Positions 2 through 63,031 of a DNA stretch of 64,000 nucleotides are shown piece by piece; positions within the stretch are counted from its first letter, which is position 1, and each line of letters opens with the position of its first letter. Position numbers and translations under genes: made by a program. The DNA comes from Salipiger pallidus. Its GTDB lineage: Bacteria > Pseudomonadota > Alphaproteobacteria > Rhodobacterales > Rhodobacteraceae. The DNA lies in the NCBI RefSeq assembly GCF_014643635.1, contig NZ_BMJV01000006.1:248001-312000 (forward strand). Direction: 5' to 3'. The notes under the pieces were generated by a model. That model ran no database searches. It worked only from the letters and a program-made list of their open reading frames with translations, and was not told where the DNA came from.

Positions 2-787
2 TCGCAAAGCTCGCTCGCGGTTTCCGGCAACGGCACCGACTGGGCGATCCTCAACGCCTCGCCCGACATCCGCACCCAGCTTGCCGTCACGCCAGAGCTG
101 CACCCGACCGGACTGCGCGAGATGCCGCTGCGCTCGGTGCTGGTGACCAATGGCGACATCGACCACGTGGCGGGGCTTCTGACGTTGCGCGAAATGCAGC
201 CCTTCCGGCTGCTCGCGACCCCCGGCATCCACGAGGTGCTGGACGCCAATCCGATCTTTTCCGCGCTGCGCCCCGAGGTGGTCACGCGCGAGACCATCGC
301 CCTCGATATGCCCTTCGAGCTGGCCCCCGGCCTCACGGCGACGCTGTTCGCGGTGCCCGGAAAGGTGCCGCTCTACCTCGAGGGCGATGAGGTGCAGACC
401 GATCTCATGGGCGACCAGACCGTGGGGGTGGAGCTGACGGCGGGCGAGGATACCGCCTTCTACATCCCCGGCTGCGCCCTCCTGAACAATGCGCTGCGTA
501 AGCGACTTCAGGGCGCGGCGCTGCTGTTCTTCGACGGTACGCTCTGGCGCGACGACGAGATGCTGCGCGAGGGGCTCGGCCACAAGACTGGCCGCCGCAT
601 GGGTCACATGTCCATGAGTGGTGAGGACGGCTCTCTAACGGCCTTCGCCGGGCTGGGGATCGCCCGCAAGGTCTACGTGCACATGAACAACACCAACCCG
701 GTGCTGCGTCCTGCCTCGCCAGAGAGGGCTGAGGCGGAGGCGGCGGGCTGGATCATCGGTAAGGACGGGATGGAGGTGACCACATGA
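2..787 (+). CDS. pqqB: PqqB, PQQ biosynthesis protein (5' end outside window)
   Basis: Metallo-beta-lactamase-fold protein of pyrroloquinoline quinone biosynthesis. The frame is open from the window edge and reads SQSSLAVSGNG, then NASPDIRTQL, LHPTGLRE and TNGDIDHVAGLLTLRE, which is the recognisable PqqB core with its degenerate metal-site motif. About 260 codons are visible; the family is about 300 residues, so roughly 40 N-terminal residues lie upstream. The family is linked to hydroxylation of the PqqA-derived intermediate (established knowledge). It overlaps pqqC by ATGA, indicating translational coupling in a pqq operon. pqqA is expected just upstream and cannot be seen. Confidence 0.96.
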   Translation, partial: SQSSLAVSGNGTDWAILNASPDIRTQLAVTPELHPTGLREMPLRSVLVTNGDIDHVAGLLTLREMQPFRLLATPGIHEVLDANPIFSALRPEVVTRETIALDMPFELAPGLTATLFAVPGKVPLYLEGDEVQTDLMGDQTVGVELTAGEDTAFYIPGCALLNNALRKRLQGAALLFFDGTLWRDDEMLREGLGHKTGRRMGHMSMSGEDGSLTAFAGLGIARKVYVHMNNTNPVLRPASPERAEAEAAGWIIGKDGMEVTT

Positions 788-1530
788 CCCAGACACGCGA
801 GGCCTTCGAGGCCCGGCTGCGCCAGATCGGCACCGAACGCTACCACGACCGCCACCCGTTCCACCACCGTCTTCACGGCGGCGACTGCACCCCCGACGAG
901 GTGCGCGCCTGGGTCATCAACCGCTACCAGTACCAGCATTGCATCCCCCTGAAGGACGCCGCGTTCATGAGCCGGGTCGAGGATCCCGACCTGCGGCGCG
1001 CCTGGCGTAGCCGGATCGAGGATCACGACGGCACCGACACCAACGAAGGCGGTATCCGCCGCTGGCTGCGGCTGGCGGATGCGGTGGGCCTCGACCGCGA
1101 TTACGTCGCCTCGCGGCAGGGCGTGCTGCCCGCGACCCGCTTCGCCGTGGAGGCCTATGTGCGCTACGTGCGCGACAAGTCCCTGCTCGAGGCGGTGGCG
1201 GCCTCGCTTACGGAACTCTTCGCGCCGAAGATCCACGCGGGCCGGATCGAAGGGCTGCTGAAGCATTACGATTTCGCCGACGACAGCGCCCTCAGCTACT
1301 TCCGCAACCGCCTGACCGAGGCTCCCAAGGACGTGGCCTTCGGCCTTGACTGGGTGCTGGGTCACGCGGACACCGCCGAAAAGCAGGACGCGGCGGCGAA
1401 TGCGCTGATCTTCAAGACAGAGGTGCTCTGGGCCCAGCTTGATGCGCTCTGGGGCGCCTATGTCGAAGGCCGCATCCCGCCGGGCGCGTGGCAGCCGGGC
1501 GAAGGCCTCGCCAGCCCGAAGGCGGCATGA
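784..1530 (+). CDS. pqqC: PqqC, pyrroloquinoline-quinone synthase
   Basis: 248-residue cofactor-independent oxidase that performs the last ring closure and oxidation of PQQ synthesis in the cytoplasm. The sequence carries the family hallmarks: an early RYHDRHPFHHRLHGG stretch, the NRYQYQ motif, EDHDGTD, and a C-terminal LGHADTAEKQDAA segment. Length matches the family (about 250). The start overlaps the pqqB stop as ATGA and the stop overlaps pqqD in the same way, so the three genes are almost certainly co-translated. Confidence 0.97.
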   Translation: MTQTREAFEARLRQIGTERYHDRHPFHHRLHGGDCTPDEVRAWVINRYQYQHCIPLKDAAFMSRVEDPDLRRAWRSRIEDHDGTDTNEGGIRRWLRLADAVGLDRDYVASRQGVLPATRFAVEAYVRYVRDKSLLEAVAASLTELFAPKIHAGRIEGLLKHYDFADDSALSYFRNRLTEAPKDVAFGLDWVLGHADTAEKQDAAANALIFKTEVLWAQLDALWGAYVEGRIPPGAWQPGEGLASPKAA

Positions 1531-1946: not shown

Positions 1947-3056
1947 ATGACCCAGCCAAAGCCCCCCATCGCCATGCTGGCTGAACTCACCCACCGTTGC
2001 CCGCTGTCCTGTCCTTACTGTTCCAACCCCGTCGAGATGGCCCGCCAAGACAGCGAGCTGGCGACCCAGGACTGGATCCGCGTCTTCCGCGAGGCGGCGG
2101 ATCTGGGCGTGCTCCAACTGCACCTGTCGGGCGGAGAGCCTGCCTCGCGCCGCGATCTCGAAGAGCTTGTCGCCGCCGCCCGAGACGCGGGGCTGTATAC
2201 GAACCTCATCACGTCGGGCATCGGGCTCAGCGAACGGAGGCTGAGGGCGCTCGATGCGGCGGGGCTCGATCATGTGCAGCTCAGCCTGCAAGGCACGACC
2301 CCCGAGATGGCGGACGAGATCGGCGGCTACACCGGTGGCTTCAAGCGCAAGATGCAGGTCGCCGACTGGATCGGGCAGATCGGGTTTCCGCTGACGCTGA
2401 ACGCGGTGCTGCACCGGCGCAACCTGCACCAGCTGCCCCGCGCCATCGAGATGGCGGTCGAGATGGGCGCCCGCCGGATCGAGGTTGCCACGGTGCAGTT
2501 TCACGGCTGGGCGCTGAAGAACCGCGATGCGCTGATGCCGACGCGCGAACAGGCCGCAGAGGCGACCCGCATCGTGACCGAGGCGCGGCAGGCCCTCAAG
2601 GGCACGCTGGTGATCGACTACGTGCCGGCGGACTACCACTCGGACTATCCCAAGCGCTGCATGGGCGGCTGGGGCTCGACCGGGCTCAACGTGACGCCGG
2701 AAGGGCTGGTCCTGCCCTGCCACGCGGCGCAGACCATCACGCACCTGACGTTCCAGTCCGTGCGCGACGCGTCTTTGTCCGGGATCTGGCACGATGGCCC
2801 CGCCTTCAACGCCTACCGCGGCACCGACTGGATGCCCGAGCCCTGCGCCTCGTGCGAGCGCAAGACCGTGGATTTCGGCGGCTGTCGCTGTCAGGCCATG
2901 GCGCTGGTGGGGGATGCGTCCGCGACGGATCCGGTCTGCGTGAAGTCCCCGCACCACGTGGACCTGCAGGCCCGGGCCGAGGCGCATGCCGCAGCCGAAG
3001 CCCCCCTGGTCTACCGCACCGCGCCGGGCCGGCGGGTGGAAGAACCTGCGCAGTAG
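1947..3056 (+). CDS. pqqE: PqqE, PqqA peptide cyclase (radical SAM)
   Basis: 369-residue radical SAM enzyme that forms the Glu-Tyr C-C crosslink in PqqA, the first committed PQQ step. The CxxxCxxC cluster is visible at residues 18, 22 and 25 (HRCPLSCPYCSNP). The SPASM-type C-terminal auxiliary cluster region has CMGGWGSTGLNVTPEG, LPCHAA, EPCASCERK and GGCRCQA. The start at 1947 is preferred over an in-frame ATG 9 codons earlier because AGGAAGG (1932-1938) sits at correct spacing and the family begins close to this point. It is the last recognisable pqq gene; no pqqF peptidase follows. Confidence 0.96.
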   Translation: MTQPKPPIAMLAELTHRCPLSCPYCSNPVEMARQDSELATQDWIRVFREAADLGVLQLHLSGGEPASRRDLEELVAAARDAGLYTNLITSGIGLSERRLRALDAAGLDHVQLSLQGTTPEMADEIGGYTGGFKRKMQVADWIGQIGFPLTLNAVLHRRNLHQLPRAIEMAVEMGARRIEVATVQFHGWALKNRDALMPTREQAAEATRIVTEARQALKGTLVIDYVPADYHSDYPKRCMGGWGSTGLNVTPEGLVLPCHAAQTITHLTFQSVRDASLSGIWHDGPAFNAYRGTDWMPEPCASCERKTVDFGGCRCQAMALVGDASATDPVCVKSPHHVDLQARAEAHAAAEAPLVYRTAPGRRVEEPAQ

Positions 3057-4371: not shown

Positions 4372-4470
4372 GGCCCGATACTTAGGGCTGCCTTGCCAGA
4401 GCGGCGGGCGCGGCGCACGGTTCGGGCAGGGTGCCTTGGGAAGGGGGTGGCCCTCGGAGGAGGAACAGCA

Positions 4471-5097
4471 ATGGGAATTTTCGACAAGCTTTTTGGAGGC
4501 GGTGATCCCGGCACCGTGGCGAGCTATCGCCACGTGAAGATCCACCCTTCGGTCGATAACGGCATCAAGCCCGCGACCCAGGGATTTTCCGGCGGCACGC
4601 TCAAGTGCAAGTGCCCGAGTAACAAGGTGATCGTCACCGTCGAGGCGCAGACTGCCCACAATCACGTTTGCGGCTGCACCAAATGCTGGAAGCCCGATGG
4701 CGCGATCTTCAGCCAGGTGGCGGTGGTGTCGCGGGACAAGCTCAAGGTGACCGAGAACGGCGACAAGCTGTCCATCGTCGATCCGTCCGCCGCCATCCAG
4801 CGCCATGCCTGCACCGGCTGCGGCGTGCATATGTACGGCCGCATCGAGAACACCGGCCACCCGTTCCACGGCCTTGATTTCGTCCACACGGAACTGTCGT
4901 CGCAGGGCGGCTGGTCGCCGGCGGAATTCGCCGCCTTCGTGTCCTCGATCATCGAATCGGGGGTCGATCCGGCGCGCATGGACGAGATCCGCGGCCGCCT
5001 GCGCGAGCTGGGACTGGAACCCTACGATTGCCTGTCGCCGCCGCTCATGGATGCCATCGCCACCCATTTGGCCAAACAGAGCGGTGCGCTTCGATAA
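4471..5097 (+). CDS. gfa: Gfa-like glutathione-formaldehyde activating enzyme
   Basis: 208-residue zinc protein of the Gfa family, associated with condensation of glutathione and formaldehyde to S-hydroxymethylglutathione. Paired metal-binding cysteines are visible: [18 protein letters not shown] and [10 protein letters not shown], matching the CxC, CxxC and CxxC pattern of the family. The start at 4471 (MGIFDKLF) has a strong GGAGGAGG site at 4457-4464. It supplies the substrate of FlhA (13640), so it belongs to the same formaldehyde pathway although it lies 8.5 kb away in the cluster. Whether Gfa is truly catalytic or a glutathione carrier is debated for the family. Confidence 0.93.
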
Positions 5098-5255: not shown

Positions 5256-5972
5256 ATGAAAGACCTGACCGACGCGCGACCGCGCGGCGCGATACGCTCC
5301 GTGCTGATCGTGGATGACCACCCGCTCTACAGCGATGCCCTGGCCGCCGCGTTGTCGCTGGCCTTTCCCGAATGCCACTTGGAAAAGGTGTCGACCCTCG
5401 GGGCGGCGCTGACGCTGGTGACCGGGGGGCTTGAGCCCGACCTTGTCATGTTCGACCTCAAGCTGCCGGATGTCTCCGGCATCTCCGGATTCCAGTCGCT
5501 GCGCAAGGCGCTGCCGGGCAGCCCGGTGCTGGTGATCTCGTCGCTGACCTCGGTGCAGGTGGTGCAGGCGCTGATGGAAGAGGGCGCGGCCGGGTTCCTG
5601 CCCAAGGACGCCCCCGCCCCCGTGCTGCGCGAGGCCCTGCGCGAGATCGAGGCGGGCCGTCATTACGTGCATCCGGCCTACCGGACCGAACCGCGCCCCC
5701 TGCAGGATGCCTTTGACGGTCACCCAAAGCTCGCCGAGCTGACGCCGCAACAACAGAAGATCATGAAGCTTATCTGCGCCGGCAAGCCCAACAAGCAGAT
5801 CGCCTACGAGCTGTCGCTCGCCGAGGCGACGGTGAAGGCGCATATCACCGCGCTGCTGCGCCGGCTTGGGGTGCAGAACCGCACCCAGGCGGCGGTGCTG
5901 GTCGAGAATTCCCAGCCCGCTACCGGCATTGGCGCCGGCGAGGCGGACGCCCGGGCCTTTCTGAGCCGCTGA
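5256..5972 (+). CDS. LuxR/NarL-family response regulator
   Basis: 238-residue cytoplasmic transcription regulator. The N-terminal receiver has the acidic pair D20-D21 (VDDHP) and phosphoacceptor D67 (VMFDLKLPDVSG). The C-terminal LuxR helix-turn-helix reads LTPQQQKIMKLICAGKPNKQIAYELSLAEATVKAHI in overlapping blocks. The start at 5256 follows AGGGAGGA (5241-5248); an upstream in-frame ATG adds 43 unrelated residues. Regulators of this type (FlhR in Paracoccus, ErbR/AgmR in Pseudomonas) control PQQ-dependent alcohol and formaldehyde oxidation, which matches the setting. It is followed after 4 nt by the FIST gene and then the hybrid kinase, so the three are likely co-transcribed. Confidence 0.92.
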   Translation: MKDLTDARPRGAIRSVLIVDDHPLYSDALAAALSLAFPECHLEKVSTLGAALTLVTGGLEPDLVMFDLKLPDVSGISGFQSLRKALPGSPVLVISSLTSVQVVQALMEEGAAGFLPKDAPAPVLREALREIEAGRHYVHPAYRTEPRPLQDAFDGHPKLAELTPQQQKIMKLICAGKPNKQIAYELSLAEATVKAHITALLRRLGVQNRTQAAVLVENSQPATGIGAGEADARAFLSR

Positions 5973-5976
5973 CGGC

Positions 5977-7134
5977 ATGACGCGGGACGGGGGGGCTCCG
6001 CGCTACGTCAGCATCTCGGTCTCGCGAGAGGCCGATGCCCGCGCAGCGGTGGAGGAGACGCTGCGCGGGCTTGATCTGTCCGAGGCCTGCTTCCTGCTGG
6101 CCTTCGTGCCCGTGGGGCTTGACCTCGGGGAGGTGGCGGCGGCGCTGGATGCGGGCGCGCAGGGCGTGCCGGTGTTTGGCTGCACCACCGCAGGCACCAT
6201 CACCACGCAAGGCTACGATTCCGAGGCGCTGCTGCTGCTGGCCTTCCCGCGCGAGCATTTCCGCTGTGCCTCCATGCTCATCACGCCGCTGAACCCGCTG
6301 TCCATGAAGACCATCACCCGCGACGTGCGCGCCCATGCCACCCGCTTCAGCCGAACCGCCGGGTGGAACCGGCTGGCGCTGATCCTGGCCGATGGTCTGT
6401 CGAAGCAGGAGGACCTGCTGGTCGCCACGCTTGAGGCGGCGCTGGGTGAGGTACCGGTGTTCGGTGGCTCGGCGGGGGACGACCTGTCGTTTCGCGACAC
6501 GTTCGTGCTGCACGAAGGGCGGTTCCGCCGCGATGCCGCCTTGCTGCTTCTGCTCGAGACCGACCTCGAATTCCGCGGCCTCGGGTTCGACCACTTCCTG
6601 CCCACGGACACCCAGATGGTGGTGACCGAAGCGATTCCCGAACAGCGCCTCGTGCTCGAGATCAACGGCGCGCCTGCTGGGATCGAATACGCCCGCATCG
6701 TCGGCTGCCCGGTGGATGCGCTGAGCCCGCAGGTGTTCGCCGAGAACCCGATGCTGGTGCGGCAGAACATGAATTACCATGTGCGCGCCATCCACGGCGC
6801 GCCGGGGGAGCACGCCTTGAGCTTCCTGTGCGCCATCGACGACGGGCTGATCCTGACGCTGGGGCGGGGCAAGGAAATCCTCGAGACGCTCGAGGCGGGC
6901 CTCGGCGTGCAAGGGCGCCGCGGCGAGGCACCGGATTTCGTGCTGGGCTTCGACTGCATCCTGCGCCGCCTCGAGATCGAACAGAAAAACCTTGGCGACG
7001 AGGTGTCCGAGATCTTCCGTCGGCACCGGGTGCTGGGCTTCAACACCTACGGCGAACAGCATTGCGGGGTGCATGTGAACCAGACCTTCGTGGGTGTCGC
7101 CTTCTTCGAGCCGGGCCGGAGGGACTACGCATGA
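5977..7134 (+). CDS. FIST-domain sensor protein, NosP-like
   Basis: 385-residue cytoplasmic protein with FIST_N (roughly residues 20-215, containing VPVFGCTTAGTIT and EVPVFGGSAGDDL) and FIST_C (roughly 216-375, ending in VLGFNTYGEQ and NQTFVGVAFF). FIST proteins are signal-input modules; the NosP subgroup binds haem and nitric oxide and is encoded next to the NahK kinase (established in Pseudomonas). Here the gene overlaps a NahK-like hybrid kinase by ATGA, the same arrangement. The haem ligand cannot be assigned with confidence from sequence alone, so NO sensing is inference. It lies between the response regulator and kinase genes as the middle gene of an operon. Confidence 0.88.
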   Translation: MTRDGGAPRYVSISVSREADARAAVEETLRGLDLSEACFLLAFVPVGLDLGEVAAALDAGAQGVPVFGCTTAGTITTQGYDSEALLLLAFPREHFRCASMLITPLNPLSMKTITRDVRAHATRFSRTAGWNRLALILADGLSKQEDLLVATLEAALGEVPVFGGSAGDDLSFRDTFVLHEGRFRRDAALLLLLETDLEFRGLGFDHFLPTDTQMVVTEAIPEQRLVLEINGAPAGIEYARIVGCPVDALSPQVFAENPMLVRQNMNYHVRAIHGAPGEHALSFLCAIDDGLILTLGRGKEILETLEAGLGVQGRRGEAPDFVLGFDCILRRLEIEQKNLGDEVSEIFRRHRVLGFNTYGEQHCGVHVNQTFVGVAFFEPGRRDYA

Positions 7135-9371
7135 TCGACCCCGACGAGCCGCTCGAACGGCAGGTGCAGCGGCAGGCGCGGATCATCGACGCGCTGATGC
7201 GCCGGTCCAACCGCCAGCACGAGGTGGGCGGCACCGCTTATGGCGCCTTCCAGTCGGCCATCGCCCTGCAAGGGCAAGTCTGGGCCAAGACCCGCGACCT
7301 CGAACGCACCACCGACGAGCTCCGCCATGCCCGCGACGAGGGCGAGCGCATGCGCAAGAACCTTGCCGATGCGTTGGCGGCGATGGAGGGGGGCGTGGCG
7401 CTGTTCACTGATGGGCGGCTCGAGGTGTGCAACGACATCTTCCTCAAGCTGCTGCCCGACGTGTCCGGCCGGTTGCAGCCCGGCACCGGGATCGAGCAGT
7501 GCTTTGGCGCGCTGTCGGGCAGCCGCCACGTGGTCACCGTCGAGGGCAACGTGGACGCGGCGCTGGCGCAGGCGCGCCGTGGCGGTGTGGGCACATCGGT
7601 GGTGTCGCTGGTGATCGCGCTGACCGGAGACCGCTGGTACCAGATCAACCTTCAGCGCACGAGCGACCGCAACATCGTGCTGCTGCTGACCGAGATCACC
7701 ACCATCGTGCGCCGCAACCGCTCCGAGAAGGAGCACCTGATCGACCGGCAGGCCGACTACCTGCAGGCGGTGTTCGAGAACATGACCTCGGGGGTGTGCA
7801 CCTTTTCGCCCGAGGGGGCGGTGATGATGTACAACCAGCAGTTCCGCATCCTGCTGGGACTGCCCTATACCATGCTGCAGAAGGGCACGGACCTGCACCA
7901 GCTTCTGGATTTCGTCGCCGGTCACAAGGTGATCGTCGATGCGGGCCTGTTCGAGATTGCCCAGTGGCTCGACCGGCTGGACCGGCAGGGGCGGCTGCGG
8001 CGGCGGATGCGTCACGCCACCGGCCGGATGCTCGACCTGCACGCGCACCGGCTGCCCGACGGCGGGGTGATGCTGGAACTCAAGGACGTGACGCTGGAAA
8101 CCCGCGCCACGGAGATGCTGGAAAACCGCGTGGTGGAGCGCACCGAAGAGCTGACCCGCGCCAACGACCAGCTGCGCCAGCAGTTCGACGAGATGGCCCG
8201 CGTCGAAGAGGAACTGCGCCAGGCCAAGGAGAGGGCCGAGGCGGCGGTGTCCTCCAAGACCCGCTTCCTTGCCGCCGCATCGCATGACCTGCTGCAGCCG
8301 GTGAACGCGGCCAAGCTGCTCATCGCCACCCTGCGGGAAAGCACCGAGGGCACCGGGGTCGGCGGCATGGTAGAGCGGCTCGATGGCTCGTTCAGCTCGA
8401 TTGAACAGCTGCTGCATTCGCTGCTGGACATCTCGCGGCTGGACTCCGCGGATCGGGCGCTCACGCCGTCGGACGTGGGCATCGGCAGCCTCATGCGCTC
8501 GGTCCGGGACGACCAGCTGCCGCTGGCGCAGCGCAAGGGGGTGACGCTGGACGTGGTGCCCAGCGGGGCTTTCGTGCGCTCGGACCCGGTGTATCTGCTG
8601 CGCTCGATCCAGAACCTCGTGGTGAACGCGCTGCAATACACCCCCGAGGGCGGGCGCGTGCTGGTGGGCTGCCGCCCGAGGCGTGGCCGGATCGAGCTGC
8701 AGGTCTGGGACACCGGCATCGGCATCTCGCGCAAGGACCAGAAGCGCATCTTCGAGGAATTCGCCCGCGCCGACAATGTGCCGCTTGGCTCCGGGGTGGG
8801 GCTGGGCCTGTCCATCGTCGACCGCACCTGCCGCCACCTCGGCCACAAGGTGCGGGTCCGCTCCAAGCCTGGCGTGGGGTCGGTGTTCTCCATCGAGATG
8901 GAACTGGCCGAGGGCCGCGTGGCCCAGTCCTCCGAGCCAGCCGAGGGCTGCGCCGGCCCGGTGGTGAGCGAGACCGAGATGGACCATATCGTCCTGCTGG
9001 TGGAAAACGACCCCGACGTGCTTTTCGCTTTCACCTCGAAGCTGGAGCAATGGGGCGCCAGCGTGCTGCCCGCCGGCTCGATCACCGAGGCGCTGGGGCA
9101 TGTGCGTGACATCGGCATGGCTCCGGACATCATCCTCGCCGACTACCAGCTTGATGACGGAGAAACCGGCGACCGCGCCATCGCCGCCGTGCGCGAACTG
9201 ACCGGGGTACGGGTGCCCGCGATCATCATCACCGCCGACCGCAGCACAGGCCTTGTGAGCAAGGGCGCGGTCGAGGGGTTCTCGGTGCTCACCAAGCCGG
9301 TGCAGCTGTCGCGCCTGCGCCCGCTCATCGACTGGAAGATCCGGTGGCAATCTCCCGAGGCGGCGGAATGA
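7131..9371 (+). CDS. Hybrid PAS sensor histidine kinase, NahK/FlhS-like
   Basis: 746-residue soluble kinase. Order of domains: N-terminal helical region with a coiled coil (about 1-85), two PAS-like segments (about 85-190 and 210-320; the second begins AVFENMTSGVCTFSPEGAV), then a coiled coil (about 325-375). A HisKA box with H385 (AAASHDLLQPVNAAK), a HATPase domain (NLVVNALQYTPEGG, DTGIGI, GVGLGLSIV) and a C-terminal receiver with D671 (ILADYQLDDGE) follow. No transmembrane segment is evident. The start overlaps the FIST stop, replacing a longer frame that begins inside the FIST gene. PAS-type hybrid kinases of this SHDLLQP class include NahK/ErcS' of Pseudomonas and resemble FlhS of Paracoccus. 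Likely partner: the FIST protein as input and the LuxR-type regulator as output. Confidence 0.9.
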   Translation: MIDPDEPLERQVQRQARIIDALMRRSNRQHEVGGTAYGAFQSAIALQGQVWAKTRDLERTTDELRHARDEGERMRKNLADALAAMEGGVALFTDGRLEVCNDIFLKLLPDVSGRLQPGTGIEQCFGALSGSRHVVTVEGNVDAALAQARRGGVGTSVVSLVIALTGDRWYQINLQRTSDRNIVLLLTEITTIVRRNRSEKEHLIDRQADYLQAVFENMTSGVCTFSPEGAVMMYNQQFRILLGLPYTMLQKGTDLHQLLDFVAGHKVIVDAGLFEIAQWLDRLDRQGRLRRRMRHATGRMLDLHAHRLPDGGVMLELKDVTLETRATEMLENRVVERTEELTRANDQLRQQFDEMARVEEELRQAKERAEAAVSSKTRFLAAASHDLLQPVNAAKLLIATLRESTEGTGVGGMVERLDGSFSSIEQLLHSLLDISRLDSADRALTPSDVGIGSLMRSVRDDQLPLAQRKGVTLDVVPSGAFVRSDPVYLLRSIQNLVVNALQYTPEGGRVLVGCRPRRGRIELQVWDTGIGISRKDQKRIFEEFARADNVPLGSGVGLGLSIVDRTCRHLGHKVRVRSKPGVGSVFSIEMELAEGRVAQSSEPAEGCAGPVVSETEMDHIVLLVENDPDVLFAFTSKLEQWGASVLPAGSITEALGHVRDIGMAPDIILADYQLDDGETGDRAIAAVRELTGVRVPAIIITADRSTGLVSKGAVEGFSVLTKPVQLSRLRPLIDWKIRWQSPEAAE

Positions 9372-9630: not shown

Positions 9631-10317
9631 ATGCGCAGGACACTTGTCATTCTCGCGTCGCTCGCCTGCCTGTCGGGCCCGACGCTTGCCGCCACGACCG
9701 ACGCCGGCCAGACCTACGATCTGCTGTTCCGGCAGGGCACGCTCGACAGTGTCGGGACCGACCGCACGCTGACCTACAGCCGCGAGGTCAGCAACACCGC
9801 GAGCGCCGAAGGGACGGAACGGGCGGACAACGACACCGGCACCATCGCGCTCAGCTTCGACGAGGGGGCGGGAGACAGGCCTCTGCAGGCTAACCTGCAG
9901 TTCCTGCAGGATGGCAAGCACCGCAACATGGGCAGCTTTCCGGCCAGTGTCGGCAACCCGATGATCATGGTATTCTATGAAAGTGTCATCCGCGACATGG
10001 CCCAGAGCGCCGGCGGCTCGCCATACTACATCCGCAACCGGGTGAAGGACGCGTTGGTGCAGCCCGCGCAGATCGAAACCGGCACGGCCGAGGTGGACGG
10101 CACCACGGTGGACACCCGCACCGTTACCCTGCGTCCGTTTGAAACCGACCCCAACCGCGACCGCATGGCCGGCTGGGCGGATCTTGAGCTCAGGGTCACC
10201 ATGTCCGAGGCGGTGCCCGGCTGGTACGTCGCGCTGGAGGCCGAAGCGCCTGATGCCGAGGGAGACGGTCCAGTCTACCTGTCGACCATGCGCTTCGACG
10301 GGCTGAGCGCGCAATGA
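9631..10317 (+). CDS. Exported protein of unknown function
   Basis: 228 residues with a clear signal peptide (RRTLVILASLACLSGPTLA, cleavage near residue 20), so the mature protein is periplasmic. The mature part is rich in beta-strand-like segments and has no cysteine pairs or known motif; SPYYIRNRVKDAL and GWADLELRVTMSEAVPGWYV are its most distinctive segments. GGGAGGA (9617-9623) sets the start. It overlaps the next gene by ATGA, so both are probably made together. Its place between the C1 two-component operon and the SoxYZ-like/FlhA genes suggests a role in periplasmic alcohol oxidation, but that is inference only. Confidence 0.82.
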   Translation: MRRTLVILASLACLSGPTLAATTDAGQTYDLLFRQGTLDSVGTDRTLTYSREVSNTASAEGTERADNDTGTIALSFDEGAGDRPLQANLQFLQDGKHRNMGSFPASVGNPMIMVFYESVIRDMAQSAGGSPYYIRNRVKDALVQPAQIETGTAEVDGTTVDTRTVTLRPFETDPNRDRMAGWADLELRVTMSEAVPGWYVALEAEAPDAEGDGPVYLSTMRFDGLSAQ

Positions 10318-10685
10318 TCCGCGTCGCCCTTCTTGCCGGCCTGTTCGCGGGCCTCGTGTCAGGCTTCGTGCCGGGGCCGGCGCTGGCGCAGGACGTGTCG
10401 GACAGGCTCAACGACTACCCGACGGAAAACCGCGCGGACTATGTCTTTGCCTGTATGGCCTCCAACGGCCAGACCCGCGAAGCGCTGCGGCAATGTTCCT
10501 GTTCCATCGACGAGATCGCGTCGATCCTGCCCTTCGAGGCCTACGTGCAGGCGGAAACGGTGCTTTCCATGCGCCTCACCGGGGGGGAGCGCATGGCGGT
10601 CTTCAACAGCGCCGCTGCCGCCAACACCCTTGTTGCGGACCTGCGCCGGGCACAGGCCGAGGCCGAGGTGATCTGTTTCTTCTGA
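10314..10685 (+). CDS. Small exported cysteine-containing protein of unknown function
   Basis: 123 residues with a signal peptide ending near ALAQ (residue 25-26). The mature part has four cysteines: FACMASNG, QCSCSID and the C-terminal VICFF. A disulfide or metal-site role is possible. No family was recognised. It is translationally coupled to the preceding exported protein (ATGA overlap at 10314). Confidence 0.8.
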   Translation: MIRVALLAGLFAGLVSGFVPGPALAQDVSDRLNDYPTENRADYVFACMASNGQTREALRQCSCSIDEIASILPFEAYVQAETVLSMRLTGGERMAVFNSAAAANTLVADLRRAQAEAEVICFF

Positions 10686-13522: not shown

Positions 13523-13592
13523 GAATACACACCATTGGATGTATTGTTCGGTATGCCGCTGCGCACCCATACTCCGGAGCAAGCGCCGGAGT
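13523..13592 (+). promoter_or_regulatory. flhA upstream region with shared motif and inverted repeat
   Basis: GAATACACACCAT at 13523-13535 matches the site before the response regulator gene (5162). It is followed by CGGTATG (13549) and CTGCGC, then a 7-bp inverted repeat ACTCCGG/CCGGAGT at 13571-13577 and 13586-13592. The block lies 48 to 117 bp before the flhA start, suited to activator binding. Confidence 0.4.
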
Positions 13593-13639: not shown

Positions 13640-14766
<1,127 letters not shown>

Positions 14767-14767
<1 letters not shown>

Positions 14768-15591
14768 TGGAAACCGTCTCGGAAAACGCAAGCTTCGGTG
14801 GCGTTCAGGGCGTGTACAAGCACGCCTCCGAGGTGACGGGCTGCGACATGACCTTCGCGGTCTACATGCCGCCGCAGGCCAAGGACGGGCCCGTTCCCGT
14901 CCTGTGGTACCTGTCGGGTCTGACCTGCACCCACGAGAACGCCATGACCAAGGGCGGCTTCCAGGAGCATGCCGCGAAGCATGGCATCGCCATTGTCTTC
15001 CCCGACACGAGCCCGCGCGGCGAAGGTGTGGCCAACGATGACGCCTACGATCTGGGGCAGGGCGCGGGGTTCTACGTGAACGCCAAGCGTGACCCGTGGA
15101 AGCCGCATTTCCAGATGTACGATTACATCACCAAGGAACTGCGCGGCATCGTCGAGGGCATGGATGGCATCGGTGGCAAGCACGGCATCACCGGGCATTC
15201 GATGGGCGGCCACGGCGCGCTGACTATCGCGATGCGCAACCCGGACATGTACGACAGCCTCTCGGCCTTTGCGCCCATCGCCAACCCCACCGGGTCGGAC
15301 TGGGGCCGCAAGCAGTTCAGTGCCTATCTTGGCGATGACGAAGGCTGCTGGGCCGAGCATGATTCCACCCTTCTCATGGAAGAGAAGGGCTGGAAGGGTG
15401 ACCTACTGGTGGACCAGGGGGCAGCTGATCAGTTCCTCGACCTGCTGAAGCCCGAAGCGCTGTCCGCCGCCATTGCCCGGAAACGCCAGCCGGCGACCTT
15501 CCGGATGCAGGACGGCTACGATCATTCGTATTTCTTCGTGCAGAGCTTTGCGGGCGATCACGTCGCCTGGCATGCGGCACGGCTGAAGTGA
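14767..15591 (+). CDS. fghA: S-formylglutathione hydrolase
   Basis: 274-residue alpha/beta hydrolase (esterase D family) that releases formate and glutathione. The nucleophile elbow is GHSMGGHG, the acid is within LLVDQGAADQF and the histidine is in DGYDHSYFF. LSGLTCTHENAMTKGGFQ is the family's oxyanion-hole region. Translation is coupled to flhA (TGATG). A strong hairpin follows the stop. Confidence 0.97.
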
Positions 15592-16285: not shown

Positions 16286-18088
16286 ATGACGAAGCTGACG
16301 TTGATGACGTCGGGTCTGGCACTGTGTGCCGCGACCATGGCCATGGCCAACGACGATCTCATGACCCAGATGGACAACCCCGCGCAATGGGCGATCCAGA
16401 CGGGCGATTATGCGAACCAGCGCTATTCCGAGCTTGATCAGATCAATGCCGAGAACGTGGGCGACCTGCAGGTCGCGTGGTCGTTCTCGACCGGGGTGCT
16501 GCGCGGCCACGAAGGCTCGCCGCTGGTGATCGGCGACATGATGTATGTCCATACGCCGTTCCCCAACACCGTCTATGCGCTCGACCTCAAGGAAGAGGGC
16601 AAGATCGTCTGGCGTTACGAGCCCAAGCAGGATCCGGACGTGATCCCGGTGATGTGCTGCGACACGGTAAACCGTGGCGTTGCCTACGCGGATGGCAAGA
16701 TCTTCCTGCACCAGGCCGACACCAAGGTCGTGGCGCTTGATGCCATGACCGGCGAAGTGAAGTGGGAAGTGATGAACGGTGACGCCTCGAAGGGCGAAAC
16801 CAACACCGCCACCGTCATGCCGGTGAAGGACAAGATCATCGTCGGCATCTCTGGCGGGGAATTCGGCGTTCGCGGCCATGTCACGGCCTACAACATGGAA
16901 ACCGGCGAACAGGAATGGCGCGCCTGGTCCATGGGTCCCGACGAGGACATCCTTGTTGATCCCGAAAACACCACGCATCTGGGCGAGCCTGTGGGTGAAA
17001 ACTCGGGCACCAACACTTGGGAAGGCGATCAGTGGATGATCGGCGGCGGCACCACCTGGGGCTGGTATTCCTACGATCCCGAAGCCGATCTGATCTATTA
17101 CGGCACCGGCAACCCGTCGACCTGGAACCCGGCGCAACGCCCGGGCGACAACCGCTGGTCGATGACCGTGATGGCCCGTGACCCCGACGACGGCATGGCC
17201 AAGTGGTTCTATCAGATGACGCCCCACGACGAATGGGACTACGACGGCGTCAACGAGATGATCCTTACCGATCAGGAGATGGACGGCGAAGTGCGCAAGC
17301 TGCTCACCCACTTCGACCGGAACGGCCTTGGCTACACCATGGACCGCATCACCGGCGAACTTCTGGTGGCCGAGAAATACGACCCGGCGGTCAACTGGAC
17401 CACCGGCGTGGACATGGACCCGGAGTCGGAAAACTACGGTCGTCCGGCGGTCGTGGCGGAGTACTCGACCGAGCAGAACGGCGAAGACGTGAACTCGACC
17501 GGCATCTGCCCGGCGGCGCTTGGCTCCAAGGACCAGCAGCCGGCGGCCTATTCGCCCAAAACCGAACTCTTCTACGTGCCGACCAACCACGTCTGCATGG
17601 ATTACGAGCCGTTCCGGGTAAGCTACACCGCCGGACAGCCCTATGTGGGTGCGACTCTTGCGATGTACCCGGCGCCGGACAGCCACGGCGGCATGGGCAA
17701 CTTCATCGCTTGGGACAATATCAACGGCGAGATCAAGTGGTCCCTGCCCGAGCAGTTCTCGGTCTGGTCCGGTGCGCTGGCCACTGCCGGTGACATCGTC
17801 TTCTACGGCACGCTCGAAGGCTACCTGAAGGCGGTCTCGGCCGAGACCGGCGAAGAGCTGTACCGCTTCAAGACCCCCTCGGGCATCATCGGCAACGTGA
17901 TGACCTATGAACAGGGCGGCAAGCAGTACATCGGCATCCTGTCGGGTGTCGGCGGCTGGGCGGGTATCGGCCTTGCGGCCGGTCTTACCAACCCCAACGA
18001 CGGCCTCGGCGCCGTGGGCGGCTACTCGGCCCTTTCCGACTACACCGCGCTTGGTGGTCAGCTGACGGTCTTCACCCTTCCCGACTGA
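16286..18088 (+). CDS. xoxF: XoxF, lanthanide-dependent methanol dehydrogenase
   Basis: 600-residue periplasmic PQQ eight-bladed propeller enzyme oxidising methanol (and often formaldehyde). Signal peptide: about residues 1-21. The vicinal cysteine pair C124-C125 (VMCCDTVNR) that stacks on PQQ is present. Metal ligands by family alignment are E192 (SGGEFG), N276 (GTGNPSTWN) and catalytic D318, with the extra lanthanide-coordinating D320 in DEWDYDG; the second Asp separates XoxF from calcium-type MxaF. The start at 16286 follows AAGGGAGAAGGA. No mxaF or mxaI is present, so this is the only alcohol quinoprotein visible. A hairpin separates it from xoxG. Confidence 0.97.
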
Positions 18089-57151: not shown

Positions 57152-58150
57152 ATGAAAAATGCAATGATGTCCGTGGCAGAGGCCGCCGCCCGGATCGACG
57201 ACGGCGCGGTGCTTGTCATCGCCGGCTCCGAGGCGGCGCTGGCGCAGCTGCCCAGGGGCAACTGGATCGGTGGCACCTCGGTCTATTTCGTCACCGACAC
57301 CGGTGGGCGTATGGATACGGAGAATGTCTTCGTCACCGAGATCGAGGCCGCCACCGATGCCCGCCCGGTGTTCTACCCTGCCAAAGATCTTCCCAGCCTC
57401 ACCATGGGCCGCTACGACAACGGTCTGTCGGTCATCCTGATCCCCGCCTTCAGCGCGGCGCACGAGGCCTTCGCGATCCATGGGGCGGAATATCCGGGCC
57501 TCTTCGATCAGCCGCTCATGGGCTGGATCACCGGTGTGCCTCTGGACGAGACGGGACGGACCACGCCCAAGGTCTTCGACGGGGCCAGGGGGGAGATGCA
57601 CGCGGATGGCGCGATGCTGCTGCACGTGGCGCTGCCCGAAACGAAGATGGCCGACCTCGACATCATCAATCTTTTCGAACCGGACACCGGCGCGGACGAG
57701 ATCACCTTTGCGCACAGCGGTTTTGCCGCGCGCAGGGCGCTGATCAATGGCAAGGAACGGGATTTTGCCGCTTATCTCGCCGAGACAGCAATCGACACCC
57801 GCTGCCCTCTGGTTGCCGATTACGCGGGGGCCATGGTCAACGTGTCGGTCCAGTCGGTGGACGCCAAGGACGGGGTGACCTTCTATGCCCCGGTGATCGA
57901 AGGGCAGGTCTACCACATCGCAAAAGCCCCGGGTGATTACGCCTCGGATTTCGCGGTGCGGGCGCAAGGCCATGGCGCGCAGGAGTTGTCGTGCAACTGC
58001 ATCCTCAATTACCTCTACGGAGAGCTCGACACCAAGACCACCGGAGGCTTCACCGGGCCCGCCACCTTTGGCGAAATCGCCTACGTGCTTCTGAACCAGA
58101 CGTTGGTCCGGCTGGACCTGCGCGCGGTCGAGGCCAGCGCGGTGGCCTGA
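57152..58150 (+). CDS. Divergent FIST-like protein
   Basis: 332 residues. The layout parallels the FIST protein at 5977: an N-terminal GNWIGGTSVYFVTDTGG stretch (compare VFGCTTAGTIT), a middle VILIPAFSAAHEAF...PLMGWITGV region (compare LALILADGL and VPVFGGSAG), and a C-terminus with CILNYLYGEL, then FGEIAYVLLNQTLVRL (compare CILRRLE, then YGEQHCGVHVNQTFV). No signal peptide. Inference: a remote FIST superfamily member with a sensory or carrier role. GAAAGGA precedes the start. Confidence 0.6.
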   Translation: MKNAMMSVAEAAARIDDGAVLVIAGSEAALAQLPRGNWIGGTSVYFVTDTGGRMDTENVFVTEIEAATDARPVFYPAKDLPSLTMGRYDNGLSVILIPAFSAAHEAFAIHGAEYPGLFDQPLMGWITGVPLDETGRTTPKVFDGARGEMHADGAMLLHVALPETKMADLDIINLFEPDTGADEITFAHSGFAARRALINGKERDFAAYLAETAIDTRCPLVADYAGAMVNVSVQSVDAKDGVTFYAPVIEGQVYHIAKAPGDYASDFAVRAQGHGAQELSCNCILNYLYGELDTKTTGGFTGPATFGEIAYVLLNQTLVRLDLRAVEASAVA

Positions 58151-62495: not shown

Positions 62496-62551
62496 ATCCA
62501 GATCATGTATATCTGCCGGGGTCCCAGCATGTGATTCAAAGAGGTTGGCCC

Positions 62552-63031
62552 GTGCGCGTTACGAAAAGAACCAATATCGCCATCCGCGTCCTGATGTATT
62601 GTGCCGCGAACTCCGACCGTCTGGTGACCAAAGCCGAGATTGCGGAGCGGTGCAACGCCTCGGAAAATCACTTGGCGCAGGTCATCAACCAACTCGCGCA
62701 GCTGGGGTTCCTGCACACGCAGCGGGGCCGCAAGGGCGGACTGTCGCTGTCGCGCGGCGCCGGTGAGATCCGCGTCGGCGATGTGTTCCGCGCCCTCGAG
62801 GCGCCGGTGCCGCTGGCTGAGTGCTTTGCCGACGTGGACAACACCTGCCCGCTCATTGACGCCTGCCGCCTGCGGGTGGCGCTGACCGAAGCCGCCAACG
62901 CCTTCTACGCGACGCTCGATCCCATCACACTGGATTCGCTAATGTGCGACAATGCCGCCCTGATGGACATTCTCGCGCCGAATGGCGGGTGCCGCACCGC
63001 CGTCCCCGAGCGGGCGCTTGCAGCAGGCTGA
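62552..63031 (+). CDS. Rrf2-family regulator, NsrR-like
   Basis: 159-residue winged-helix regulator (RVTKRTNIAIRVLMYCAAN, AEIAERCNASENHLAQVINQ, GLSLSRGAGEIRVGDVFRAL). Three cysteines at 91, 99 and 105 (ECFADVDNTCPLIDACRL) form an Fe-S binding pattern as in NsrR. NsrR proteins sense nitric oxide through the cluster; NsrR identity is inferred from overall likeness, and IscR/RirA relatives remain possible. The start is GTG 62552 with AAAGAGG seven bases upstream, giving the usual NsrR-like N-terminus; GTG 62531 adds seven residues. Confidence 0.83.
   Translation: MRVTKRTNIAIRVLMYCAANSDRLVTKAEIAERCNASENHLAQVINQLAQLGFLHTQRGRKGGLSLSRGAGEIRVGDVFRALEAPVPLAECFADVDNTCPLIDACRLRVALTEAANAFYATLDPITLDSLMCDNAALMDILAPNGGCRTAVPERALAAG

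Follow-up and report, generated by a model that had tools for sequence, protein, structure and literature searches.

A stretch of 64,000 nucleotides from Salipiger pallidus (hereafter the window) carries three consecutive genes for a response regulator, a FIST protein and a PAS hybrid histidine kinase, set among genes of one-carbon (C1) and pyrroloquinoline quinone (PQQ) metabolism. The unit is probably a formaldehyde-control switch of the AfdRTS or FlhR-Orf2-FlhS kind, with the FIST protein as an auxiliary sensor of the kinase and flhA as the target; control of glutathione-dependent formaldehyde oxidation is its most likely function. The evidence lies in gene order, family relations, conserved linkage, a conserved candidate operator and a conserved Cys/Glu pair. 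The three genes are:

5256..5972, + strand: response regulator, 238 aa, Asp67 in FDLKLPD; Pfam Response_reg + GerE; proposed counterpart of FlhR/AfdR/RfdR
5977..7134, + strand: FIST protein, 385 aa; Pfam FIST_N + FIST_C; NosP family; proposed counterpart of AfdT/RfdT/Orf2
7131..9371, + strand: PAS hybrid histidine kinase, 746 aa, His385 in ASHDLLQP, Asp671 in LADYQL; NahK/ErcS relative, proposed counterpart of FlhS/AfdS/RfdS

The regulator has a receiver followed by a LuxR-type helix-turn-helix, and the kinase reads in Pfam as two PAS_7 stretches, HisKA, HATPase_c and Response_reg, with no membrane segments visible by eye. The regulator and FIST genes are 4 nt apart, and the start codon of the kinase shares the sequence ATGA with the FIST stop codon. 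This arrangement has the coordinates given in an earlier note on this DNA, whose operon is taken here as layout only; the domain order and the residues which that note named (His385, Asp671 and Asp67) are likewise present in the open reading frames (ORFs) and Pfam matches. The likeness to NosP and NahK that it proposed stands as distant homology, but not as family membership. The best NCBIfam model of the FIST protein is NosP (NF041558) with 364 bits, below the cut-off of 450; the kinase reaches 358 and 327 bits with the NahK/ErcS' models (NF041831 and NF041832, cut-offs 1500 and 400); and the best model of the regulator is ErdR, with 151 bits against a cut-off of 390. All three scores fall under the curated cut-offs, so that the proteins are relatives, rather than members, of the curated ErdR, NosP and NahK/ErcS' families.

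Gene neighbourhood and conservation of the unit

The unit lies in a block containing the following genes:

784..1530, + strand: pqqC (TIGR02111, 377 bits)
1947..3056, + strand: pqqE (TIGR02109, 565 bits)
4468..5097, + strand: gfa, S-(hydroxymethyl)glutathione synthase, upstream of the unit (TIGR02820, 338 bits)
9631..10317, + strand: hyp1, conserved ORF 3' of the kinase gene, signal-peptide-like start by eye
10314..10685, + strand: hyp2, small conserved ORF overlapping hyp1
13640..14767, + strand: flhA, glutathione-dependent formaldehyde dehydrogenase (TIGR02818, 605 bits, cut-off 544)
14767..15591, + strand: fghA, S-formylglutathione hydrolase, one-base overlap with flhA (named after its positional counterpart in Mameliella pKUB257)
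16286..18088, + strand: PQQ methanol dehydrogenase, presumably of the XoxF type (TIGR03075, 776 bits; start inferred)

On the 5' side stand pqqB (beyond the window edge), pqqC, pqqE and gfa, and on the 3' side hyp1, hyp2, a SoxYZ-like carrier, a metallo-hydrolase, flhA-fghA, a cytochrome c, the PQQ dehydrogenase, and MoxJ-like and CXXCW genes; the tie of the unit to PQQ and C1 genes put forward in the earlier note is borne out. The dehydrogenase at 16286..18088 belongs to the PQQ methanol/ethanol family and is called XoxF here on our assumption from gene context, as are the labels xoxG and xoxJ for genes of the block.

A survey of 149 genomes of the order, with co-occurrence tests uncorrected for phylogeny, detected a NosP-type FIST protein in 69 genomes at 78 places, while the NosP cut-off (NF041558) was passed in none of the 149. 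At 73 of the 76 foreign places examined (stretches of up to 20 kb, nine of them shorter, 10-19 kb), a regulator and a kinase on the same strand flank the FIST gene, because of which the arrangement is not due to chance. The three exceptions are L071 without a detected regulator, L112, where a contig end cuts the locus, and L113, a divergent FIST with neither partner (L112 and L113 were omitted from the initial FIST set and L113 was restored later; FIST readings below 301 or above 519 aa were excluded from later counts). Such a genome survey had been suggested by the earlier note, and in it the FIST protein tracks PQQ alcohol dehydrogenases (TIGR03075), being present in 49 of the 50 genomes that carry one (table 49/20/1/79; odds ratio 194, p 7e-22) and showing the same association by genus (27/12/1/32, p 3e-9; genus tables tallied by hand). 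FIST genes lie within 20 kb of a PQQ dehydrogenase at 38 of 78 places (38/58 in genomes having one), and in 22 of the 76 foreign loci, the setting typical of clade-C units (see below), the dehydrogenase stands 2.6-2.8 kb before the FIST gene. Across the phylum, 299 genomes gave FIST in 66, the dehydrogenase in 67 and both in 31 (p 4e-7), with 17 of 70 FIST places no more than 20 kb from a dehydrogenase.

The FIST tree (109 sequences, quick method, support by the Shimodaira-Hasegawa-like approximate likelihood ratio test, SH-aLRT) contains three clades of interest. Clade A holds the window protein with those of Salipiger, Sinorhizobium, Rhodovulum and others; clade B those of Paracoccus (including P. 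kondratievae and P. aminovorans), Cereibacter flavus, Loktanella and others; and clade C units linked to PQQ ethanol-type dehydrogenases or unlinked, including the second copy of this genome. Clades A and B each split off at 100 and, jointly with L174, at 98, and the remaining part of the tree is the NosP side, apart from clades A, B and C. FIST proteins outside the tree were assigned to a clade by nearest identity to its members. A NosP-family FIST is the middle gene in units of Paracoccus, Cereibacter, Sinorhizobium and Salipiger.

Among the best 80 of 586 named loci, 47 belong to clade A, 31 to clade B and two to others; both partners are present in 77 and a marker of the C1/PQQ block in 68. 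In the same set, hyp1 and hyp2, which have no match in Pfam or NCBIfam, occur together in 46/47 clade-A and 29/31 clade-B loci (76 overall), so that regulator-FIST-kinase-hyp1-hyp2 practically amounts to a five-gene unit. By eye, the starts of hyp1 and hyp2 resemble those of secreted proteins, which suits a cytoplasmic sensor poorly.

In Salipiger abyssi and Mameliella alba (L036, L037) the unit is plasmid-borne together with much of the C1 block, which is annotated there, and on Sinorhizobium meliloti pSymB (an unannotated stretch) the unit and the genes from flhA to CXXCW were located by similarity; the block may be mobile as a package. The FIST protein also matches plasmids of Alloyangia and Sagittula. 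The genome has a second regulator-FIST-kinase unit (L003, 8134-12307, contig 1, clade C) without C1 neighbours, and its second PQQ dehydrogenase is on a contig other than that of L003. This copy, together with the clade-C units beside PQQ ethanol-type dehydrogenases, rules out a unit unique to this genome or to XoxF.

Related settings recur on other replicons. Plasmids of Paracoccus marcusii, P. sp. AK26, P. seriniphilus, Ruegeria, Pseudosulfitobacter and Shinella carry a PQQ dehydrogenase and PedF close to the unit, and aldehyde dehydrogenase and DUF779 genes adjoin FIST and kinase in Azospirillum and Sphingobium plasmids. In the phylum survey (60 stretches taken of 62 chosen places), 18 places passed the NosP cut-off, and at ten of them the stretch includes a gene for aldehyde dehydrogenase, PedF or CXXCW; the loci of the large group f28 are without those markers and their kinase matches are weak (at most 112 bits). 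NosP/NahK-type pairs stand by an aldehyde dehydrogenase, some with DUF779, at L117, L120, L213-L216, L218, L219, L221, L222, L227 and L230, a neighbourhood that goes unmentioned in the available passages of the NosP literature.

A candidate operator before flhA

13524..13547, + strand: candidate operator AATACACACCATTGGATGTATTGT, imperfect inverted repeat (16/22 positions), beginning 116 nt before flhA

A 24-bp element with the consensus AATACcCACcATtGTCt.aATTGT is common to the flhA promoters of 31 clade-A loci, 86-116 nt upstream of the called start (in L153 the distance to the gene is 101 nt; the site of L185 is weak, 13 bits). In the window, the top match of the operator model is the flhA site with 33.7 bits, and the next site reaches 12.6. 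Since these 31 promoters had also served to train the model, they were scored again with similar sites left out; the element was then still the best position in 31/31 promoters (4.7 to 38.3 bits). None of 28 control genes is preceded by the element, the maximum being 1.0 bits over 250 nt and 9.4 over 1500 nt on both strands; the controls, 27 flhA genes at 79-90% identity and one 60% relative (L289, perhaps not flhA), came from 26 of 28 hand-chosen genomes without clade A. Whole stretches of 35 clade-A loci gave 50 matches vs three in mononucleotide-shuffled sequence, of which 31 are at flhA, six before hyp1, where the copies 3' of the kinase gene are weaker, five are reverse readings of the flhA site and eight lie elsewhere, one of these before pqqB in S. 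abyssi.

A strict-pattern search of the 149 genomes gave 16 matches vs 12 for the reversed control and was insensitive, missing the window's own site; its three exact matches are all in clade-A carriers. A 15-base match between the regulator and flhA promoters (5162 and 13523) was considered as a shared operator and rejected, since these two sites had themselves supplied the pattern and the regulator site scores -1.2 in the full model.

The earlier note had suggested that the unit may tune lanthanide-dependent methanol oxidation; the candidate operator precedes flhA, not xoxF, and flhA is the likely target. The element is also a concrete candidate for methanol- or formaldehyde-responsive promoters.

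The FIST protein and its signal

The window FIST protein carries the conserved residues Cys69, His206, Cys327, Glu360 and His366, with Cys69 kept in 221/226 and Cys327 in 224/226 relatives. Its AlphaFold2 model (mean predicted local distance difference test score, pLDDT, 91) matches the fold of human FBXO22, with 14-18% identity in structural alignments, and the aldehyde-trapping Cys326 of FBXO22 and its helper Glu362 align with Cys327 and Glu360. Chorismatase and cyanuric acid hydrolase rank below FBXO22 among the fold matches. FBXO22 was not among the PDB sequences retrieved with the window FIST, with its 52-row profile or with a single generic FIST as query.

From these data the following course of events may be proposed. 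Formaldehyde, or another aldehyde produced by PQQ alcohol dehydrogenases, would accumulate, and the FIST protein, as auxiliary sensor, would alter the activity of the adjoining kinase upon this build-up. Phosphate would pass to the regulator directly or through a histidine phosphotransfer (Hpt) protein, for which the genome has three matches, and the phosphorylated regulator would bind the inverted-repeat operator about 100 nt before flhA, switching on glutathione-dependent formaldehyde oxidation through flhA-fghA and perhaps gfa and pqq. Four steps of this course are inferred: operator binding by this regulator, formaldehyde as the signal, the FIST protein as its carrier, and transfer of phosphate to the regulator. 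The aldehyde chemistry could be a reversible hemithioacetal on Cys327, like that on Cys326 of FBXO22; this is the least certain step and is offered tentatively.

The earlier note had proposed another signal, namely that the FIST protein binds haem and reports nitric oxide (NO) or haem status to the kinase, thereby tuning methanol oxidation. The distant homology to NosP and NahK and the retention of Cys69, His206, Cys327 and His366 fit this idea, and the NosP of several species is reported, in the available passages, to bind haem or NO and to alter kinase activity (PMC12570481, PMC8846402, PMC11784011); no haem ligand is named in the passages on NosP. However, FIST and kinase score below the NosP and NahK cut-offs, and the residues Cys44, His205, Cys285 and Cys325, kept in 93-100% of 15 NosP proteins over the cut-off, are found in 0, 4, 4 and 0 of 98 proteins of clades A and B, the window FIST itself carrying Cys285. 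A scan of the genome gave no match to NirK and none to NirS, and a separate H-NOX domain protein, a classical NO sensor, is encoded apart from the FIST units (contig 4, 314385-314849). Among the 149 genomes (NirK in 21, NirS-type in 30), nitrite reductases occur in 26/69 with FIST vs 25/80 others (p 0.49, phylogeny uncorrected), with a weak trend by genus (21/18 vs 10/23, p 0.058). On the absence of NirK and NirS, the lack of co-occurrence with nitrite reductases and the separate H-NOX, NO as the main input was rejected. It finds no support in this genome, haem or NO binding as such lies beyond the verdict of sequence, and we regard this signal as improbable.

Whether the kinase senses by itself is a further question. 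Its two PAS domains could perceive the signal while the FIST protein only scaffolds or stabilises the kinase, in line with an rfdT mutant described as without effect on adhI in the available part of PMC4776306. Clade B speaks against this: four kinases scanned there have HisKA, HATPase and receiver and no PAS domain, 36 of 38 are only 440-477 aa long, and all 38 accompany a FIST (L147 and L155 are read as 700 aa with a called start inside the FIST gene; from the FIST end L147 is 434 aa). We consider sensing by the PAS domains quite unlikely.

Several points weigh against the formaldehyde switch with a FIST sensor. The window has no further full operator, neither before xoxF nor before the regulator, and clade B and C loci yield no more operator matches than shuffled sequence does (1 vs 1 and 3 vs 3). 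Operator and unit lie within one inherited block, and their co-occurrence falls short of proving binding. The element could then be the site of another regulator travelling with the block, and the unit could control something else; against this stand the presence of the element in 31/31 unit-bearing flhA loci vs 0/28 controls and its weaker copy before hyp1 in six loci, and we give such an explanation as little weight as sensing by PAS. By itself the sequence match to FBXO22 is non-significant (E 1.2-1.3, 15-row family profile vs PDB), so that the correspondence rests on fold. Cys327 and Glu360 are kept in nearly all FIST proteins, including NosP relatives with NO or cyclic di-GMP (c-di-GMP) roles, and may be structural or haem-serving. 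Twelve of the best 80 of 586 named loci have no C1 marker in the available flank, and the genome comparisons take no account of phylogeny. In two Bradyrhizobium strains, which lie outside the unit search, methanol is likewise reported to affect formaldehyde dehydrogenase. The equation with FlhS/AfdS/RfdS is based on order, genus and neighbourhood, the type-strain loci being outside the best 80 of 586, and in R. sphaeroides an rfdT mutant is reported with unchanged adhI expression with formaldehyde (PMC4776306, available passages).

With a conserved cysteine at the aldehyde-trapping position, the question of how formaldehyde is sensed can be put to the test on a single protein by a single point change, and a bacterial regulator is linked to a human drug-discovery target, FBXO22. 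A wider and rather doubtful proposal is that aldehydes are sensed by those bacterial FIST proteins that stand beside ErcS/FlhS-type kinases; formaldehyde in clades A and B, and acetaldehyde in clade C and the aldehyde-dehydrogenase-linked NosP relatives, would form a reversible hemithioacetal with the conserved FIST_C cysteine, aided by the conserved glutamate, as in the chemistry exploited with human FBXO22. It would supply the sensor that the AfdRS and FlhRS systems lack, and suggest that the NO role of NosP is one branch of a family with an older job in alcohol and aldehyde oxidation. The setting of the NosP family is recast in any event: in Rhodobacterales, Hyphomicrobiales, Sphingomonadales, Rhodospirillales and, according to the passages available, Pseudomonas, its relatives lie near genes for PQQ alcohol or aldehyde oxidation.

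Elsewhere in the window are an Rrf2-family regulator (62531-63031), which scores closer to RirA than to NsrR with both below cut-off, and a DUF6976 protein (57152-58150).

Comparison with known systems

Units related to that of the window occur in the type-strain genera Paracoccus and Cereibacter, the latter presumably the present genus of R. sphaeroides, both in clade B, which groups with clade A of the window at 98. The likeness to AfdRTS, RfdRTS and FlhR-Orf2-FlhS consists, as far as the available passages describe these, in the order regulator - middle gene - kinase in one direction and in the setting in glutathione-dependent formaldehyde and methanol oxidation; the window kinase is of the long PAS form, whereas the clade-B kinases are short and without PAS. 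In those passages, one layout is shared by afdR-afdT-afdS and rfdR-rfdT-rfdS of R. sphaeroides and flhR-orf2-flhS of P. denitrificans; with formaldehyde, the formaldehyde dehydrogenase gene is activated by AfdRS, and RfdRS is thought to repress it (PMC4776306). The means by which AfdRS and RfdRS perceive formaldehyde are described there as unknown, both seem to be without conserved cysteines, and no family or clear role is given for the middle gene (PMC4776306). FlhRS is described as controlling formaldehyde genes, mxa and mau (PMC8879981, available passages). Judging from order, genus and neighbourhood, AfdT, RfdT and Orf2 would be FIST proteins. The passages leave the middle protein unconsidered as a sensor, and its likely counterpart here keeps two cysteines, one of them at the aldehyde-trapping position.

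The link that the earlier note held to be unusual and perhaps a distinct system has precedents, since the gene order is known (PMC4776306) and the nosP-nahK homologues of P. putida lie inside the PQQ ped cluster (PMC12997753, a 2026 review, available passages). Pseudomonas NosP-NahK/ErcS' (PedS1) thus resembles the window unit: in both, a hybrid kinase of the ErcS family accompanies a FIST-type protein, and the pair belongs to a PQQ alcohol dehydrogenase cluster. In contrast, the window proteins are under the cut-offs, on another branch of the FIST tree and with a regulator gene directly in front. Legionella NosP-NahK-NarR and Burkholderia nosRPK are also described, in the passages available, as three-gene FIST-kinase-regulator units, but with regulators that carry c-di-GMP domains (GGDEF/EAL or HD-GYP), whereas that of the window is of the LuxR DNA-binding type. 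In Pseudomonas YiaY-YiaZ (ErcA-ErcS), as far as described there, an ErcS-family kinase of alcohol oxidation is likewise believed to be directed by an accessory protein, which is an iron alcohol dehydrogenase where the window has FIST. Human FBXO22, unlike the window FIST, is a ubiquitin-ligase subunit without a kinase partner.

In the one open collection searched, where the original afd, rfd and flh papers were not found, no paper joins FIST domain, histidine kinase and methanol dehydrogenase, and a search on FIST domain, aldehyde and bacteria returned, by title, only FBXO22 or fungi. The layout of the unit is already known from the systems compared here; added by this work are the family of the middle protein, the operator and the correspondence with FBXO22.

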